NCBI GenBank assembly: GCA_016190545.1
Contig: JACPQI010000165.1
Coordinates: 1-5,276 of the forward strand
Length of the DNA: 5,276 nt
Direction: 5' to 3'
Source: Chloroflexota bacterium
GTDB lineage: Bacteria; Chloroflexota; Dehalococcoidia; SHYB01; JACPQI01
Below, in pieces: positions 610 to 5,276 of this stretch. Below the pieces are notes generated by a model. The model was given only the letters and a program-made list of their open reading frames with translations. It made no database searches and was not told where the DNA came from. Positions within the stretch are counted from its first letter, which is position 1; each line of letters opens with the position of its first letter. Made by a program: the position numbers and the translations under genes.

Positions 610-2259
610 CTAGGCGCGGGCCGCGCTCTTGAATACTCGGTGCTCTTCCTCTGTCGCGATCTTGGCGTCCACCACCACAGGGCCATCCCTTTTCCCCGCC
701 AGTTTGCCCACAGCCTGGATGTCCGCCAGAGTGCGCACCGTAAGGCCCCTGGCCTTGAAGGCCCGGGCCACATCTGCGAAATCCACATCCTGAAAGCAAG
801 CCAGGGCTGGTGGTTTCTTCTCCTCCTTCAGCATGTAGACCTCTGCGCCATAGGCCCCGTCGTTCAGCACCACTATGGTCAAGGGGATGTGGTAGCGAGC
901 GGCCGTTTCCAACTCCTGGATGTTCATCATGAAGCCGCCGTCGCCCGCAAAGACGATGCAATGTCGGTCTGGCCTGCCCAGGGCCGCTCCAATGCCCATG
1001 GCCAGGCCAAGGCCGATAGACTGGAAGTCCTTGGGCCACACAAGGGAGTCCGGGCCAGGGACGGTAATGTGGTCCCACACGAACAAGAGGTTCATTCCGC
1101 CATCCACGACGACGACTCTGTCTTGGGGCAAGACCCGGTCCAGTTCGGCGAGGACCTGAGCGAGACGAAGCTGCTCAGACCCTATCGCTGCGGCGGGCGG
1201 CCTGGGCCGACAAGCCTTGATAAGCGCCTGCGCGCTCTCACTCGCCCAAAAGCTGGGCCGCTCGGATATGCCCGCCTCTGCGAGACTTGCATTGATTGCA
1301 GCGACGACCGTCCGAGCATCGCCTTGGATACCCAACTCTACAGGCGTGAACTCGCCGAAGCGGTCCTGGTCCTGATCAATGTGGACCACCTTGGCCTTGG
1401 GAGCGATGCGCCCACCACCGGTAGTGTAGGGATTGAGGGAAGCTCCCACGGCAAGGATCAAGTCGGCCTGGGCCAACAGTTCCACCGCCGAGTCCGCGGC
1501 AAAGGCGCCAAAGACACCGATGTAGGAGGGGTGGCCTCGAAAATACTGCCAAGCCTGAAGGCTCGTTCCAAGGAGGGCCCCGGTGCGCGATGCCAGGGCC
1601 TCGATCTCACCCCGCGCCTCTGAGAGCACAGCGCCCCTCCCTGCCAGGATCACTGGGCGTTTGGCCGCCACCAACATGGCCGCGGCGCGCTCCACGGCAA
1701 CGGGATCCGGGGCGAGGCGGAACGGCGGAGGCATCGTTGCTCGGGAAGCCTGGTACTGCCACTCCCACGGATAGTCACTCCTCAGGACATCGACCGGTGC
1801 GTTGAAGACCACAGGGCCTCGCCCCGCGCGAATAGTGCGAAAGGCGAGTTGCACGTCCTCACCCACCGTCATAGCCCTCCGCAAGGGAACAAAGTGTCCC
1901 GCGGTCGATTCCACATACCGGCGCTGGTCGAAGGTCTTCGCATTGCCGCGGTCGCCGGCAGGCATGTCCCCCGCGATGACCAGGAGAGGGGAACCCCGCT
2001 TGCGCGCCGTCACCAGCCCCGTTCCCGTCTGGGCCAGCCCCGGTCCCGTACCCACTGTGCAGACACCAGGCTTTCCAGTGGCCCGGGCATATCCATCAGC
2101 CATGACCACCGCGCCCTGCTCGTGGCGAGCATGGATAACCCGCACGCCCTCCTCGTGCATCGCCTGCACCAGGCTGATGGTCACTTCGTCCATAACGCTG
2201 AACACCACCTCGGTCCCTTCCGCAGCTACTGCCTTGGCAACGGCTTCAAAGATTTTCAT
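610..2259 (-). CDS. thiamine-diphosphate-dependent enzyme, acetolactate synthase/benzoylformate decarboxylase superfamily
   Basis: This is a complete 549-residue ThDP enzyme with the usual three domains: Pyr (about 1-165), central DHS-like (about 185-325) and PP (about 365-535). The ThDP-activating glutamate is E47 (ARHEQGAVVMADGYAR), followed by the conserved TGPG stretch at 71-74. The PP domain holds the Mg/ThDP-binding motif, starting with GDGG (439-442) and ending with N466-D467, preceded by the glycine-rich QSIGLGLAMGIGAALG (413-428). Such enzymes cleave or form C-C bonds next to a carbonyl: 2-oxoacid decarboxylation, acetolactate synthesis, or acyloin-type reactions. No regulatory subunit gene (ilvN/ilvH) is next to it, so biosynthetic acetolactate synthase is less likely than a catabolic 2-oxoacid or acyloin enzyme. 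The ATG at 2259 has AAGGAG (2269-2264) four bases upstream; the stop is TAG at 612-610. It is the last gene of the minus-strand cluster. The superfamily is sure, the substrate unknown. Confidence 0.93.
   Translation of the reverse strand: MKIFEAVAKAVAAEGTEVVFSVMDEVTISLVQAMHEEGVRVIHARHEQGAVVMADGYARATGKPGVCTVGTGPGLAQTGTGLVTARKRGSPLLVIAGDMPAGDRGNAKTFDQRRYVESTAGHFVPLRRAMTVGEDVQLAFRTIRAGRGPVVFNAPVDVLRSDYPWEWQYQASRATMPPPFRLAPDPVAVERAAAMLVAAKRPVILAGRGAVLSEARGEIEALASRTGALLGTSLQAWQYFRGHPSYIGVFGAFAADSAVELLAQADLILAVGASLNPYTTGGGRIAPKAKVVHIDQDQDRFGEFTPVELGIQGDARTVVAAINASLAEAGISERPSFWASESAQALIKACRPRPPAAAIGSEQLRLAQVLAELDRVLPQDRVVVVDGGMNLLFVWDHITVPGPDSLVWPKDFQSIGLGLAMGIGAALGRPDRHCIVFAGDGGFMMNIQELETAARYHIPLTIVVLNDGAYGAEVYMLKEEKKPPALACFQDVDFADVARAFKARGLTVRTLADIQAVGKLAGKRDGPVVVDAKIATEEEHRVFKSAARA
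614..630 (+). terminator. possible weak terminator hairpin after the helicase gene
   Basis: On the + strand, GCGCG (614-618) pairs with CGCGC (622-626) around a GGC loop and is followed by TCTT. This would be a short GC-rich hairpin with a poor T-tract, 34 bases after the helicase stop. A second small inverted repeat, GCGCC/GGCGC (602-606/613-617), competes with it. It lies over the last codons of the convergent gene, so coding constraint could explain it. I regard it as weak. Confidence 0.2.
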
Positions 2260-2386: not shown

Positions 2387-2887
2387 TCACGTGCCAGGCA
2401 GGCCAGATACGCTTGTTAGCCTAAGACCATCGGGATGAACAGGCTCGAGGTCAATGGCGACATTGAACCGATGCAGGCCATTGAAAACCATCACCGCAAA
2501 GGCGAGTTCGACGATCTGGGCCTCGGCAAAGTGGATCTTGAGATCCTCCATGAGCGCGTCGTCGATTGCCTTGGGGTTGAGGACGAGAAGCTCCGCGAAT
2601 CGAAGCGCAGCCTTTTCTCGCTCTGTGAGGTCTGATGCTTCGAAATTGCTTACCTTGGAGAGCTTCTCTTCGGTAAGACCCTGCTGCTGAGCCTCAGCAA
2701 CGCGGCTTAACACTCAATGAGTGCAGTCGTTGAGTTGCGCTGATCTCAGGCGGACCATCTCTTTCAAAGGAGCCTCAACGGCGCCGTTCTCCCAGAGCGC
2801 TCGATAGAAGCGGCGAAAAGGCTCGTACATGCCCGCCGGCAGCTTCTGATAAATCTCTCGTGCGCTACCACCTGTCAGTCTCGCCAT
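2387..2887 (-). CDS. AhpD/carboxymuconolactone decarboxylase-like selenoprotein (in-frame TGA read as selenocysteine 58)
   Basis: This is a 166-residue protein if TGA at 2716-2714 is read as selenocysteine. Before it lies a typical AhpD/CMD approach, EMVRLRSAQLNDCTH (43-57). After it the same frame continues at once with VLSRVAEAQQQGLTEEKL (59-76) and the usual C-terminal helices (REKAALRFAELLV, then VELAFAVMVFNGLHRFNVAI). The active site reads C55-T-H-U58. Compared with mycobacterial AhpD (E118, C130, H132, C133, H137), E43, C55 and H57 sit at the matching positions and U58 replaces the resolving cysteine, but the last His is Arg62. The family carries out thiol/disulfide or peroxide reduction in the cytoplasm. 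The start is the ATG at 2887, set by AAGGGAGG four bases upstream; an ATG at 2986 in the same frame has no such site and adds a non-homologous leader. It ends in TGA at 2389-2387, followed by an in-frame TAG three codons later. The alternative is a nonsense-mutated pseudogene; the SECIS-like hairpin and the second gene of the same kind argue against it. Confidence 0.85.
2683..2716 (-). promoter_or_regulatory. bacterial SECIS element with recoded UGA (first selenoprotein)
   Basis: After the TGA (2716-2714) and a 12-nt spacer, GUUGCUGA (2701-2694) pairs with UCAGCAGC (2690-2683) in eight consecutive pairs, one of them G-U, closing a GGC loop (2693-2691). The loop starts with GG at the 21st nucleotide after the UGA. 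The E. coli fdhF SECIS has an upper hairpin starting about 11 nt after UGA with a GG-containing apical loop, which SelB contacts; the layout here is very similar. The pairing is seen directly; SelB binding is inferred. Confidence 0.8.
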
Positions 2888-3011: not shown

Positions 3012-3782
3012 CTATGCGGTTGTCAGACCACCCCTGGCATAGATGATGGCCCCCGTGATGTATGCAGAGGCGTCAGAGGCCAGGAAGATAGCCGCCCCAA
3101 CGTAGTCCTCCGGTTGGGCCAGGCGCCCCAGCGGTATTCTGGCCAGGCTGTTGCGAAGCACCTCGGGGCGATCGGCGTAGTACCGCTTGGTCAAAGTCGT
3201 CTCGGTGATGCCTGGCATGAGCACGTTCACCCGCACATTGTAGGGTCCCCACTCAAGAGCGAGGGCCTGGCTAAACGTGTGCATACCCGCCTTTGCGGCG
3301 CCGTAGTGGGCCAGCCCCATGCTGGGCCACGTGCTCTGGCCAGAGCTGATGTTGATGATGCTGCCCCTTTTCTGCTGCACCATGACTTTGCCTACTGCGC
3401 GGCTGCAATGGTAGACGCTGTGCAGGTTCCGGGCCACCGCGGTATGCCAGGCGTCTTCTTCCATCTCCAGCACTGGACAGTAAGTGCCTCCCCCGACGTT
3501 ATTGATGAGAACATCAATCTTGCCAAAAACCTTCACCGCCTTCTGGACGAGAGCTTCTACGTCCGCCTTGACGGTGACATCAGCGCAGACTCCCAGTGCC
3601 TTCTGCCCTGAGGTCTCGATCTCCCGCGCCACCTCATCCACGTCGGACTTTGTGCGGGCAACCACTACCACATCAGCGCCAGCTTGTGCCAGCCCCAGAG
3701 CGAGGGCCCTGCCGATCCCCTTCCCGCTTCCCGTGACGATGGCGGCCCGACCATGTAGATCGAACTGGGCCAAGTTTGTCAT
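3012..3782 (-). CDS. short-chain dehydrogenase/reductase (SDR), classical type
   Basis: This is a complete 256-residue classical SDR, an NAD(P)-dependent oxidoreductase of hydroxyl/carbonyl groups. The cofactor glycine motif is TGSGKGIG (17-24), D68 (CADVT) contacts the adenine, and NNVGG (94-98) replaces the usual NNAG. Catalytic residues are N119, S147 (NISSG), Y160 and K164 (YGAAK), followed by the PG motif (190-191) and a normal C-terminus ending with a G-rich strand (ITGAIIYARGG). R43 (VARTKS), just after the second strand, hints at NADP(H) preference. The ATG at 3782 overlaps the stop of the NTF2-like gene as ATGA and has AGGAGG (3794-3789) six bases upstream, so the two genes are probably translationally coupled and act in one pathway. 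Stop TAG at 3014-3012. FabG-like sequence features do not imply fatty-acid synthesis here; the substrate is unknown. Confidence 0.94.
   Translation of the reverse strand: MTNLAQFDLHGRAAIVTGSGKGIGRALALGLAQAGADVVVVARTKSDVDEVAREIETSGQKALGVCADVTVKADVEALVQKAVKVFGKIDVLINNVGGGTYCPVLEMEEDAWHTAVARNLHSVYHCSRAVGKVMVQQKRGSIINISSGQSTWPSMGLAHYGAAKAGMHTFSQALALEWGPYNVRVNVLMPGITETTLTKRYYADRPEVLRNSLARIPLGRLAQPEDYVGAAIFLASDASAYITGAIIYARGGLTTA
3091..3125. repeat. 35-bp direct repeat, copy A (inside the SDR gene)
   Basis: This stretch matches 4551-4585 at 33 of 35 positions in the same orientation; the differences are at 3109 and 3120. It encodes SDR residues 220-231 (RLAQPEDYVGAA). Flanking bases do not match, so the copy has sharp edges. 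Confidence 0.85.
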
Positions 3783-4306
3783 TCCGCTCCTCCTGAAACA
3801 TTTCGGGGCAAAGAACCGACACGGTCGGTAGTCCTGGAGAGTGCTTCAATATCAGCAATGCGCTCTCTGAATCGCCACTTGCCATCCGGGCACTTGACCA
3901 TCTTGTCGTGGTACCGCCCGAAGGCGAGGATGTAGGGCTCGCCCGCCGCGCTTTCGTCAAGCCGCGCGAAGTAGCTCGCGACGCTCGCTTCGGCGCCCTT
4001 CAACGTAATCACCGGCTCTACCAACATATGCTTGTGGTACTTGTTTGGGGCGCGGGTATGCTTGCTGATGTAGGCGGCAAGGGCAGCCCGTCCCTGGTGC
4101 CGGACGCGGCCTGACCCAGGGAGCCCCTCTCGCCGCCGGACATCAAAGGCGCCATCCTCTGTGAAGCAGTCCACCCATTCCTGCTCCTTGCCGTAGTCAA
4201 TACTGTGGCCGTACTGGTACATGGCGCGCAGGATTGCCCGTTCCTCCTCCAGCGTTTCCAACCGCTGTAGCACTTCCTCCAGGCTTGACATACTGCCCTT
4301 AGGCAC
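3779..4306 (-). CDS. NTF2-like / SnoaL-like domain protein
   Basis: This is a 175-residue protein with the cone-shaped NTF2-like fold typical of SnoaL_4-type proteins. The N-terminal helix region (about 8-40, LEEVLQRLETLEEERAILRAMYQYGHSID) leads into WVDCFTEDGAFDVR (44-57). Then come the GRAALAAYI helix (72-80), the KYHKHMLVEPVI strand (89-100), the SYFARLDES strand (111-119), FGRYHDKMVK (129-138) and the terminal GKWRFRERIADIEAL (142-156). Members act as small dehydratases, isomerases or cyclases (bile-acid dehydratase, SnoaL-type cyclases), or as the small subunit of ring-hydroxylating dioxygenases. No dioxygenase large subunit is present, so an enzyme or binding role beside the SDR is more likely. 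The start is the GTG at 4306, chosen because AAGGAGG lies five bases upstream; the ATG at 4291 has none. Its TGA (3781-3779) overlaps the SDR start. The reaction is not deducible. Confidence 0.88.
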   Translation of the reverse strand: MPKGSMSSLEEVLQRLETLEEERAILRAMYQYGHSIDYGKEQEWVDCFTEDGAFDVRRREGLPGSGRVRHQGRAALAAYISKHTRAPNKYHKHMLVEPVITLKGAEASVASYFARLDESAAGEPYILAFGRYHDKMVKCPDGKWRFRERIADIEALSRTTDRVGSLPRNVSGGAE

Positions 4307-4501: not shown

Positions 4502-4654
4502 CTACGCTTCAAACCTTGTCAATGTTTTGAGATAGCTTCTTAGTACATTCGCCGCCCCAACGTAGTCCCCCGGTTGGGCTAGGCGTACCTGCCGGATAAA
4601 GTTGGCGAGCGGCTCTGCGGACGCAGGTACCCCGATGCCAAAGATGATCGTCAT
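4502..4654 (-). pseudogene. truncated LLM-class flavin oxidoreductase, N-terminal remnant
   Basis: This is a 50-codon frame with an excellent start: AGGAGG (4666-4661), six bases, then ATG at 4654. The first ~23 residues (MTIIFGIGVPASAEPLANFI and on to RQV) look like the N-terminus of luciferase-like, F420- or FMN-dependent oxidoreductases of the methylene-tetrahydromethanopterin reductase type, where the first beta strand and active-site loop begin FGIG.P. Those proteins run to roughly 300-350 residues; this frame ends in TAG at 4504-4502. Residues 24-35 (RLAQPGDYVGAA) are encoded by a segment 33/35 identical to part of the SDR gene, and the remaining tail matches nothing I recognise. It is probably a deletion/recombination remnant that may still be translated. 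The LLM assignment rests on a short stretch; it could instead be a small novel ORF. Confidence 0.6.
4551..4585. repeat. 35-bp direct repeat, copy B (inside the LLM remnant)
   Basis: This is the second copy of the stretch at 3091-3125, with 33/35 identity, same orientation, 1460 bp away. It codes in the same reading phase as in the SDR gene (R24-A35 of the remnant). The match starts and stops abruptly. Confidence 0.85.
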
Positions 4655-4676
4655 TCGCTCCCTCCTGTTGTGGGCT

Positions 4677-4700
4677 TCCCAGGGCAAGGTGATCCTGGGA
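4677..4700. repeat. 7-bp perfect inverted repeat upstream of the LLM remnant
   Basis: TCCCAGG (4677-4683) and CCTGGGA (4694-4700) are perfect inverted copies with a 10-base loop. They lie between the second selenoprotein's stop and the remnant's ribosome site. There is no T-run, so it is not an ordinary terminator. It could be an operator, an mRNA processing hairpin, or chance. Confidence 0.35.
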
Positions 4701-4728
4701 GTCAACTCATGCGGGGGAGACCGCCTGC

Positions 4729-5276
4729 TCAACGTCCTGCCGTTGCGCCCTCCGACCGAGGAGGCTCTATGCCCAGGGCCATGCCAACCCGGTTCATGAA
4801 ATTGAAATGGGCCGTCACTAATACGATCTCAGCAATCTCCATATCATTGTAACCAGCCCGGCGCAGGTTCTCCACGTCTGCCTCACCCATCACTCTCGGG
4901 GTGATCGTTAGCTTCACCGCGAACGCCAGCGCCGCTTTGATTCTCTCGCTAACCGGTGCGGTGCGCCAGTCCCCCACGAGCTTCTGTTCCAGGCCATCGT
5001 CCTTACCTCGGATCCGGCGGAGCCGCCGGGAATGGCTCCACGTTCACCAGGCGCACCCGTTTGTACTGGACACGACTACCGCGAGGGACTCCGCCAGTTC
5101 TCGGTCGAACTCCGGCGCCAGCCCATCGGGCCCCCCCAACCGTAGTGTCTGAAGAATGTTGGGGTGGTGGGTCATGGGCATCAGAATATCGGAGAAGCGA
5201 CTCGCCCCCGTCTTGGCTAGCTCCTCATAGAGCTCTCCCAGCTTACCCTGGGCCTTCTCTCGCGGCACTCCTTGAA
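4729..5276 (-). CDS. AhpD-like peroxidase-related selenoprotein (in-frame TGA read as selenocysteine), 5' end outside window
   Basis: The frame is open to the right edge and ends in TGA at 4731-4729; at least 181 residues are visible if TGA at 5046-5044 is read as selenocysteine. Numbering from the GTG at 5268: GKLGELYEELAKTG (8-21), then SDILMPMTHHPNIL (26-39), then the catalytic block ELAESLAVVVSSTNGCAW (57-74), U75, TWSH (76-79). This reproduces the AhpD pattern E60...C72-x-x-U75-x-x-x-H79, with selenocysteine in place of the second cysteine. Downstream the family signature runs on: GDWRTAPVSERIKAALAFAVKLT, then EADVENLRRAGYNDMEIAEIVLVTAHFNFMNRVGMALGIEPP. That is the layout of uncharacterised peroxidase-related proteins (about 180-200 residues). 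GTG 5268 is a possible start (AAGGA just before it), but relatives usually have a few more residues, so the start is probably outside. It is the first visible gene of the minus-strand cluster. Confidence 0.87.
5014..5046 (-). promoter_or_regulatory. bacterial SECIS element with recoded UGA (second selenoprotein)
   Basis: After the TGA (5046-5044) and 14 nt, CCGGCG (5029-5024) pairs perfectly with CGCCGG (5019-5014) around a GCUC loop (5023-5020). The loop's first G is the 21st nucleotide after UGA, the same distance as in the first gene. An alternative pairing, GGAGCC (5039-5034) with GGCUCC (5024-5019), is possible. The hairpin is seen; SelB recognition is inferred. Confidence 0.75.

Follow-up and report, generated by a model that had tools for sequence, protein, structure and literature searches.

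A predicted C-x-x-U selenoprotein of the CMD/AhpD family, accompanied by a second such gene, on a Chloroflexota contig

The minus strand between positions 2887 and 2387 of the window, by which we mean the whole analysed stretch of 5,276 nucleotides from a Chloroflexota contig, very probably encodes a single 166-residue protein of the CMD/AhpD fold in which a UGA at codon 58 is decoded as selenocysteine (Sec). As read from the DNA, the contig carries two different CxxU CMD genes, which we call CMD1 and CMD2. The features discussed are as follows:

2387..2887, minus strand: CMD1, 166 codons plus stop, predicted to encode an AhpD/CMD-like selenoprotein with the motif C55-T-H-U58
2714..2716, minus strand: TGA inside the CMD1 frame (codon 58, second CxxC position), predicted to specify selenocysteine
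2683..2701, minus strand: bSECIS-like hairpin of CMD1 with a stem of 8 bp and a GGC apical loop that begins 20 nt past the UGA, within the minimum-energy fold
4729..5274, minus strand: CMD2, predicted to encode a second AhpD-like selenoprotein with the motif C-A-W-U, above the TIGR01926 cut-off, the 5' end of the gene lying outside the contig
5044..5046, minus strand: CMD2 in-frame TGA, second CxxC position
5014..5029, minus strand: possible bSECIS hairpin of CMD2 with a stem of 6 bp and a GCUC loop that begins 20 nt past the UGA
3012..3782, minus strand: neighbouring SDR-family oxidoreductase, by profile match
3779..4306, minus strand: neighbouring SnoaL-4 domain protein, its stop overlapping the SDR start
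610..2259, minus strand: neighbouring thiamine-pyrophosphate (TPP) enzyme, acetolactate-synthase-like, by profile match

CMD1 begins at an ATG (2887-2885, minus strand) that is preceded by AAGGGAGGA, and runs through 57 codons, ending in the residues LNDCTH, to the TGA at 2716-2714, beyond which it continues in the same frame with VLSRVAEAQQQGLTEEKL as far as a terminal TGA at 2389-2387. The sequence-only reading from which we started had placed an in-frame TGA at the second Cys of a CxxC motif, and its frame, coordinates and lengths were correct. It had also claimed that family-like sequence continues past the TGA without a frameshift, and a Pfam CMD match (PF02627, E 1.2e-10, 41.7 bits at a gathering cut-off of 23) was obtained with the joined frame alone, the separate halves of 57 and 108 aa giving no Pfam match at all. 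The joined protein lies above the curated cut-off of TIGR00778, the AhpD core domain (30.0 vs 27.8 bits), and below that of TIGR01926, AhpD-like (44.1 vs 81.8 bits). The default ORF list splits the gene, as anticipated, into a 90-aa piece and a 108-aa piece with a GTG start, and neither would contain the second active-site residue. Directly 5' of this GTG, at 2713, a purine-rich stretch is absent.

Among proteins, a search of about 5.8 billion sequences with CMD1 returned 33 matches, including the window's own fragment (P0002), and 18 of the 32 others were aligned with the window (alignment A1). Cys occupies columns 55 and 58 in each of the 17 full-length rows, which agrees with the expectation that homologues carry Cys where CMD1 has its TGA; in the DNA of relatives, this position is mostly Cys or TGA. 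The remaining row, P0003, is a 106-aa fragment (53% identical) that starts after column 58, its Met aligning with the second codon past 58. With the C-terminal half as the query, 17 further proteins of 88-117 aa were found; P0035, P0042 and P0050 start, by our own reading, one to three residues past position 58, and P0044, a hypothetical protein of a Rokubacteria MAG, starts eight residues past a TGA codon 58 that follows NNCFT (locus L003). The fetched loci contain the DNA of neither P0003 nor 16 other short proteins, and the N-terminal half as a protein query returned the window's own piece alone.

Scans at the DNA level gave 14 stretches in viral contigs with CMD1, and 595 in genome contigs with alignment A2, none of which was confirmed in either case. 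A second genome scan gave at least 445 confirmed stretches, of which the best 80 loci were kept, and because its seed alignment included post-TGA fragments, this sample leans towards TGA relatives. In these best 80 of at least 445 stretches, 42 of the 92 alignments over codon 58 (from 41 loci) show TGA there, 48 show TGC or TGT, one GAC and one GAG, and none of the 92 shows TAA or TAG. The records that contain the TGA form carry the labels Chloroflexi, Rokuibacteriota, Acidobacteria, Gammaproteobacteria, Binatota and Clostridia, and one of them is the complete Geosporobacter ferrireducens genome (L054). When the distinct CMD genes of all fetched loci are counted together with the window's two, 164 genes are obtained, with TGA in 91, Cys in 62 and Glu or Asp in 11, and a Cys three residues before the codon-58 site is present in 91/91 TGA genes and 58/62 Cys genes. 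The closest genomes found to CMD1 are G107, which has two TGA copies (45% identity), and G167 (44%). In a tree of CMD genes that was built with codon 58 masked, and that has few columns for its number of rows (148 for 161), CMD1 clusters (100/98) with three TGA-bearing genes from G107 and G167. On this tree, no fewer than 14 changes of the Sec label are required, nine of which are forced by well-supported branches, and Sec and Cys have therefore been interchanged more than once.

Bacterial SECIS elements have a G in the first two bases of the apical loop, a spacing of 16-37 nt and a stem of 4-16 bp, and the hairpins behind both TGA codons of the window fall within these limits, that of CMD2 lying outside the minimum-energy fold of its 54-nt and 45-nt stretches. 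The SECIS check that had been suggested was carried out with a scan of our own in place of bSECISearch, limited to hairpins whose first or second loop base is G, and it identified a bSECIS-like hairpin after the CMD1 TGA with the spacing seen in most CMD1-type relatives. The loop of the best hairpin starts at exactly 20 nt in 39 of 42 TGA alignments vs 2 of 48 Cys alignments, the remaining TGA alignments having one hairpin at 17 nt, one at 24 nt and in one case none, and the mean best hairpin energy at a spacing of 20-22 nt is -8.2 for TGA vs -0.24 for Cys (Mann-Whitney p 7e-16). Over all fetched genes, a stem of at least 5 bp at 20 nt is found in 55/68 CMD1-type TGA genes, being missing in the other 13, and in 0/51 CMD1-type Cys genes; for the CMD2-type, the counts are 1/23 (the window's own) and 1/11. 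Such a stem at 17 nt is present in 10/68 CMD1-type and 14/23 CMD2-type TGA genes and in 0/62 Cys genes. One spacing or the other is thus represented in 65/68 CMD1-type TGA genes, and neither in 3/68 CMD1-type and 8/23 CMD2-type TGA genes. When the 3' bases were shuffled among the 91 TGA genes, a procedure that does not preserve relatedness, six of nine tested stem positions were paired above all 500 shuffles, and positions 19-31, 16-34 and 15-35 were not. The energy of the window's own CMD1 hairpin is only modestly low (z -1.68 with 10/200 shuffles reaching it at 45 nt, z -1.59 with 15/200 at 54 nt), and the corresponding values for CMD2 are z -0.97 with 32/200 at 54 nt and z -0.43 with 64/200 at 45 nt.

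The machinery for Sec insertion was sought in the relatives' genomes, many of which are MAGs whose completeness is not given; the best 80 loci fall in 78 genomes examined, with locus L065 left out. The Rfam cut-off for tRNA-Sec, 47 bits, did not discriminate, being passed by 33/39 and 35/39 genomes and by 5/14 controls, and we therefore used a threshold of 57 bits, which was picked after seeing the gap between the lowest accepted score (59.2) and the highest rejected score (52.9). A tRNA-Sec above 57 bits was found in 32/41 TGA genomes vs 12/37 Cys genomes, scored on only 81 of the first-look candidates per genome, so that some may be missed, and SelB above its cut-off in 21/23 TGA genomes vs 7/16 Cys genomes of the 39 searched. 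The 9/41 TGA genomes in which such a tRNA-Sec is missing include six that were searched for SelB, and five of these were positive, while G008 has neither. The two closest genomes found have both components, G107 with SelB at 311.7 bits and tRNA-Sec at 73.4 bits, and G167 with 333.6 and 69.6 bits. In 26 chosen genomes from the class of G001, tRNA-Sec was present at 61.8 bits or more in 25 and SelB above the cut-off in 22. Six of these 26 had been selected because their best CMD1 match has Cys or lacks a TGA, and five of the six have a tRNA-Sec as well; the machinery is therefore common in this class and less telling for single genes. The central claim of the sequence-only reading, one C-x-x-U selenoprotein, is supported by the Cys or TGA in homologues, by the SECIS-like hairpin, and by the presence of both SelB and tRNA-Sec in G107 and G167. 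From the frame, the position of the TGA, the conserved Cys partner and the hairpin spacing, all of which stand in the DNA itself, we infer Sec insertion in the source organism.

Three other explanations of the TGA were weighed. A single base change would turn TGC or TGT into TGA, and the window's protein is listed on one contig of 5276 bases, with no second assembly for comparison, so one may think of a pseudogene or of a base-calling error at a Cys codon. We rejected this explanation as very improbable, as TGA recurs at the same codon in 91 of the 164 related genes (the window's two included), the contig has two TGA genes with the same motif, a hairpin follows the TGA at a fixed spacing, and TAA and TAG are absent from codon 58 in the fetched loci. 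If the organism as a whole read TGA as Trp, Gly or some other residue, two read-throughs within one contig would be accounted for, but CMD1, the SnoaL gene and CMD2 all terminate with TGA, the aligned residue is Cys rather than Trp or Gly, and genomes from several phyla have a TGA at this position, which makes a reassigned code extremely unlikely, and it was likewise rejected.

It could also be imagined that the locus encodes a split CMD of two proteins, with termination at the TGA and re-initiation at the GTG that lies directly 3' of it, particularly as the 108-aa ORF appears both in the ORF list and in the protein database. However, this GTG has no purine-rich stretch just 5' of it, and an ATG, GTG or TTG within three codons past the TGA exists in only 11 of the 91 TGA genes, a set that includes the window's two, while 23/91 have no start codon at all in the 24 codons inspected. 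Furthermore, the stop codon was always TGA in the cases seen, and the second active-site residue would be in neither piece. A split gene was therefore rejected and has in our judgement hardly any chance of being correct. Decoding of the CMD1 UGA as Sec is thus the reading that we retain.

CMD2 lies about 2 kb from CMD1 and is composed of the frames 5274-5047 and 4977-4729, which join as a single frame across the TGA (VSSTNGCAW-U-TWSHSRRLRR). The sequence-only reading had listed CMD1 and missed this second CxxU gene at 5274-4729 (minus strand), so that its list stands for the first gene and was incomplete for the contig. CMD2 scores 98.8 bits with TIGR01926 (cut-off 81.8), 36.2 bits with TIGR00778 (curated cut-off 27.8) and 26.5 bits with PF02627 (gathering cut-off 23). 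Matches to CMD2 were found in 90/294 genomes of the class of G001, and 8 of the 20 best-scoring ones have one TGA inside. A 76-aa ORF (4502-4732, minus strand), which gave no Pfam match, may be a gene remnant; its C-terminal part looks by eye similar to the last part of the SDR at 3012-3782 (RLAQPGDYVGAA). An Rfam scan of the window gave two matches far under the cut-offs, which we regard as chance. When 34 chosen genomes were searched for the helicase, 10 had a match at E 1e-30, the best being G133 of the class of G001 (54%) and Herpetosiphon geysericola (51%), which makes a Chloroflexota origin likely.

The structure model of CMD1 (mean pLDDT 79.8) predicts a helical fold of the AhpD type with the CxxU motif at a helix start, at the beginning of helix 56-68. 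Its best PDB matches are AhpD/PA0269 structures (7xw1, 2ijc, 2o4d), with the debrominase Bmp8 (6ohi, 6ohj) lower, and profile matches from 4e-23 (2ijc) to 3.8e-16 (6ohi) place CMD1 in the same helical fold family. In Foldseek comparisons, the query TM of the model is 0.64-0.67 with the PA0269 group, at an rmsd of 3.7-6.4 A, and 0.55-0.65 with Bmp8. Unlike CMD1 as predicted, these entries contain no Sec in the parts available to us, and none of the papers searched dealt with the Bmp8 debrominase. We propose that SelB and tRNA-Sec would decode UGA codon 58 as Sec, guided by the hairpin that spans nt 13-31 past the UGA, and that C55-x-x-U58 most likely forms an AhpD-type thiol/selenol redox centre. 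The selenolate of U58 would attack a peroxide or another electrophilic substrate, C55 would resolve the intermediate formed at U58, and a disulfide reductase system would recharge the pair. CMD1 is accordingly presumed to be a thiol/selenol redox enzyme, both its redox chemistry and its substrate being deduced rather than observed. Next to a CMD1 relative in G167, on the opposite strand, there is a pyridine-nucleotide-disulfide oxidoreductase (L103), and a TPP enzyme, 29% identical, adjoins a TGA gene in G169 (L120).

Selenoproteins of this kind are not new. The sequence-only reading had named AhpD-like proteins as a reported bacterial selenoprotein family, and CxxU proteins have indeed been in print since the Sargasso Sea study of 2005, which describes AhpD-like (27 sequences) and CMD-domain (4) forms (PMC1088965); CMD1 and CMD2 therefore add to a described kind. 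A 2006 survey names AhpD-like proteins and distant AhpD homologues (PMC1794560), the GOS survey AhpD-like 1 and AhpD-like 2 (PMC2398784), the predicted Geobacter selenoproteins include a CMD homologue (PMC1242214), and reviews from 2022 (PMC9312934) and 2026 (PMC13188914) tabulate both AhpD-like and CMD-like. CMD1 shares family (PF02627), CxxU motif and a predicted bacterial SECIS with the CMD-like selenoproteins (PMC1088965; AhpD-like 2, PMC2398784; PMC13188914), and since its scores on the named (seleno)protein models, 58.1 bits on NF053654 (cut-off 310) and 18.6 bits on NF041238 (cut-off 175), fall far short of what these require, we regard it as a divergent member, probably of Chloroflexota origin. 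CMD2, with its CAWU motif and its score above the TIGR01926 cut-off, resembles the AhpD-like selenoproteins (COG2128/TIGR01926; AhpD-like 1, PMC2398784; PMC13188914), from which CMD1 differs with its 44.1 bits. The contig differs from what is described of AhpD-like 1 (PMC2398784) in carrying two distinct CxxU CMD genes. The accessible parts of the cited selenoprotein literature name a Prx-like/AhpD-like neighbour pair and do not mention a pair of two CMD-type genes; this was not a targeted search, and we make no claim of novelty. None of the papers searched dealt with selenoproteins in SAR202.

Some relatives carry more than one gene of this type. In a recurrent tandem pair, a CxxU CMD is accompanied by a paralogue whose residue at the Sec position is Glu (CEAE-type; nine loci of the class of G001, L105-L113) or Asp (CAYD; L083), and in L018 (Pseudomonadales) the Glu paralogue has lost the first Cys too. 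On the 161-row tree, all ten Glu rows fall into a single clade (100/99), L018 being a long branch, and the TGA genes of the nine Glu-pair loci of the class of G001 lack the 20-nt hairpin. We would guess that the CxxU protein and its Glu/Asp paralogue form a mixed oligomer. In L136 (G316:C22, about 3245-6560, minus strand), four tandem AhpD-like genes, each with one TGA at CxxU, adjoin a gene that matches the LigXa C-terminal domain, and two more TGA-bearing matches are listed on other contigs of G316. Seven of 294 genomes (G239, G272, G301, G310, G319, G328 and G336) each have five TGA-bearing CMD matches and one without a TGA, counts that are taken from the listing, with only some matches fetched and checked; in G336, a TAG is also inside one CMD match.

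The five or six TGA copies in some relatives, the four-gene array beside the LigXa-like gene and the Glu/Asp partner lead us to mention a wider reading, which we nevertheless consider rather unlikely: the contig might belong to a set of catabolic genes in Chloroflexota that depends on selenium, with several specialised CxxU CMDs acting on particular organic substrates and not as general antioxidants. If this were true, peroxides would be one example of such substrates, and halogenated or aromatic intermediates would be others. For CMD1-type genes, the spacing of 20 nt, less often 17, provides a simple search rule. Gene callers cut such selenoproteins in two, and selenium use in uncultured Chloroflexota and their neighbours may therefore be undercounted.
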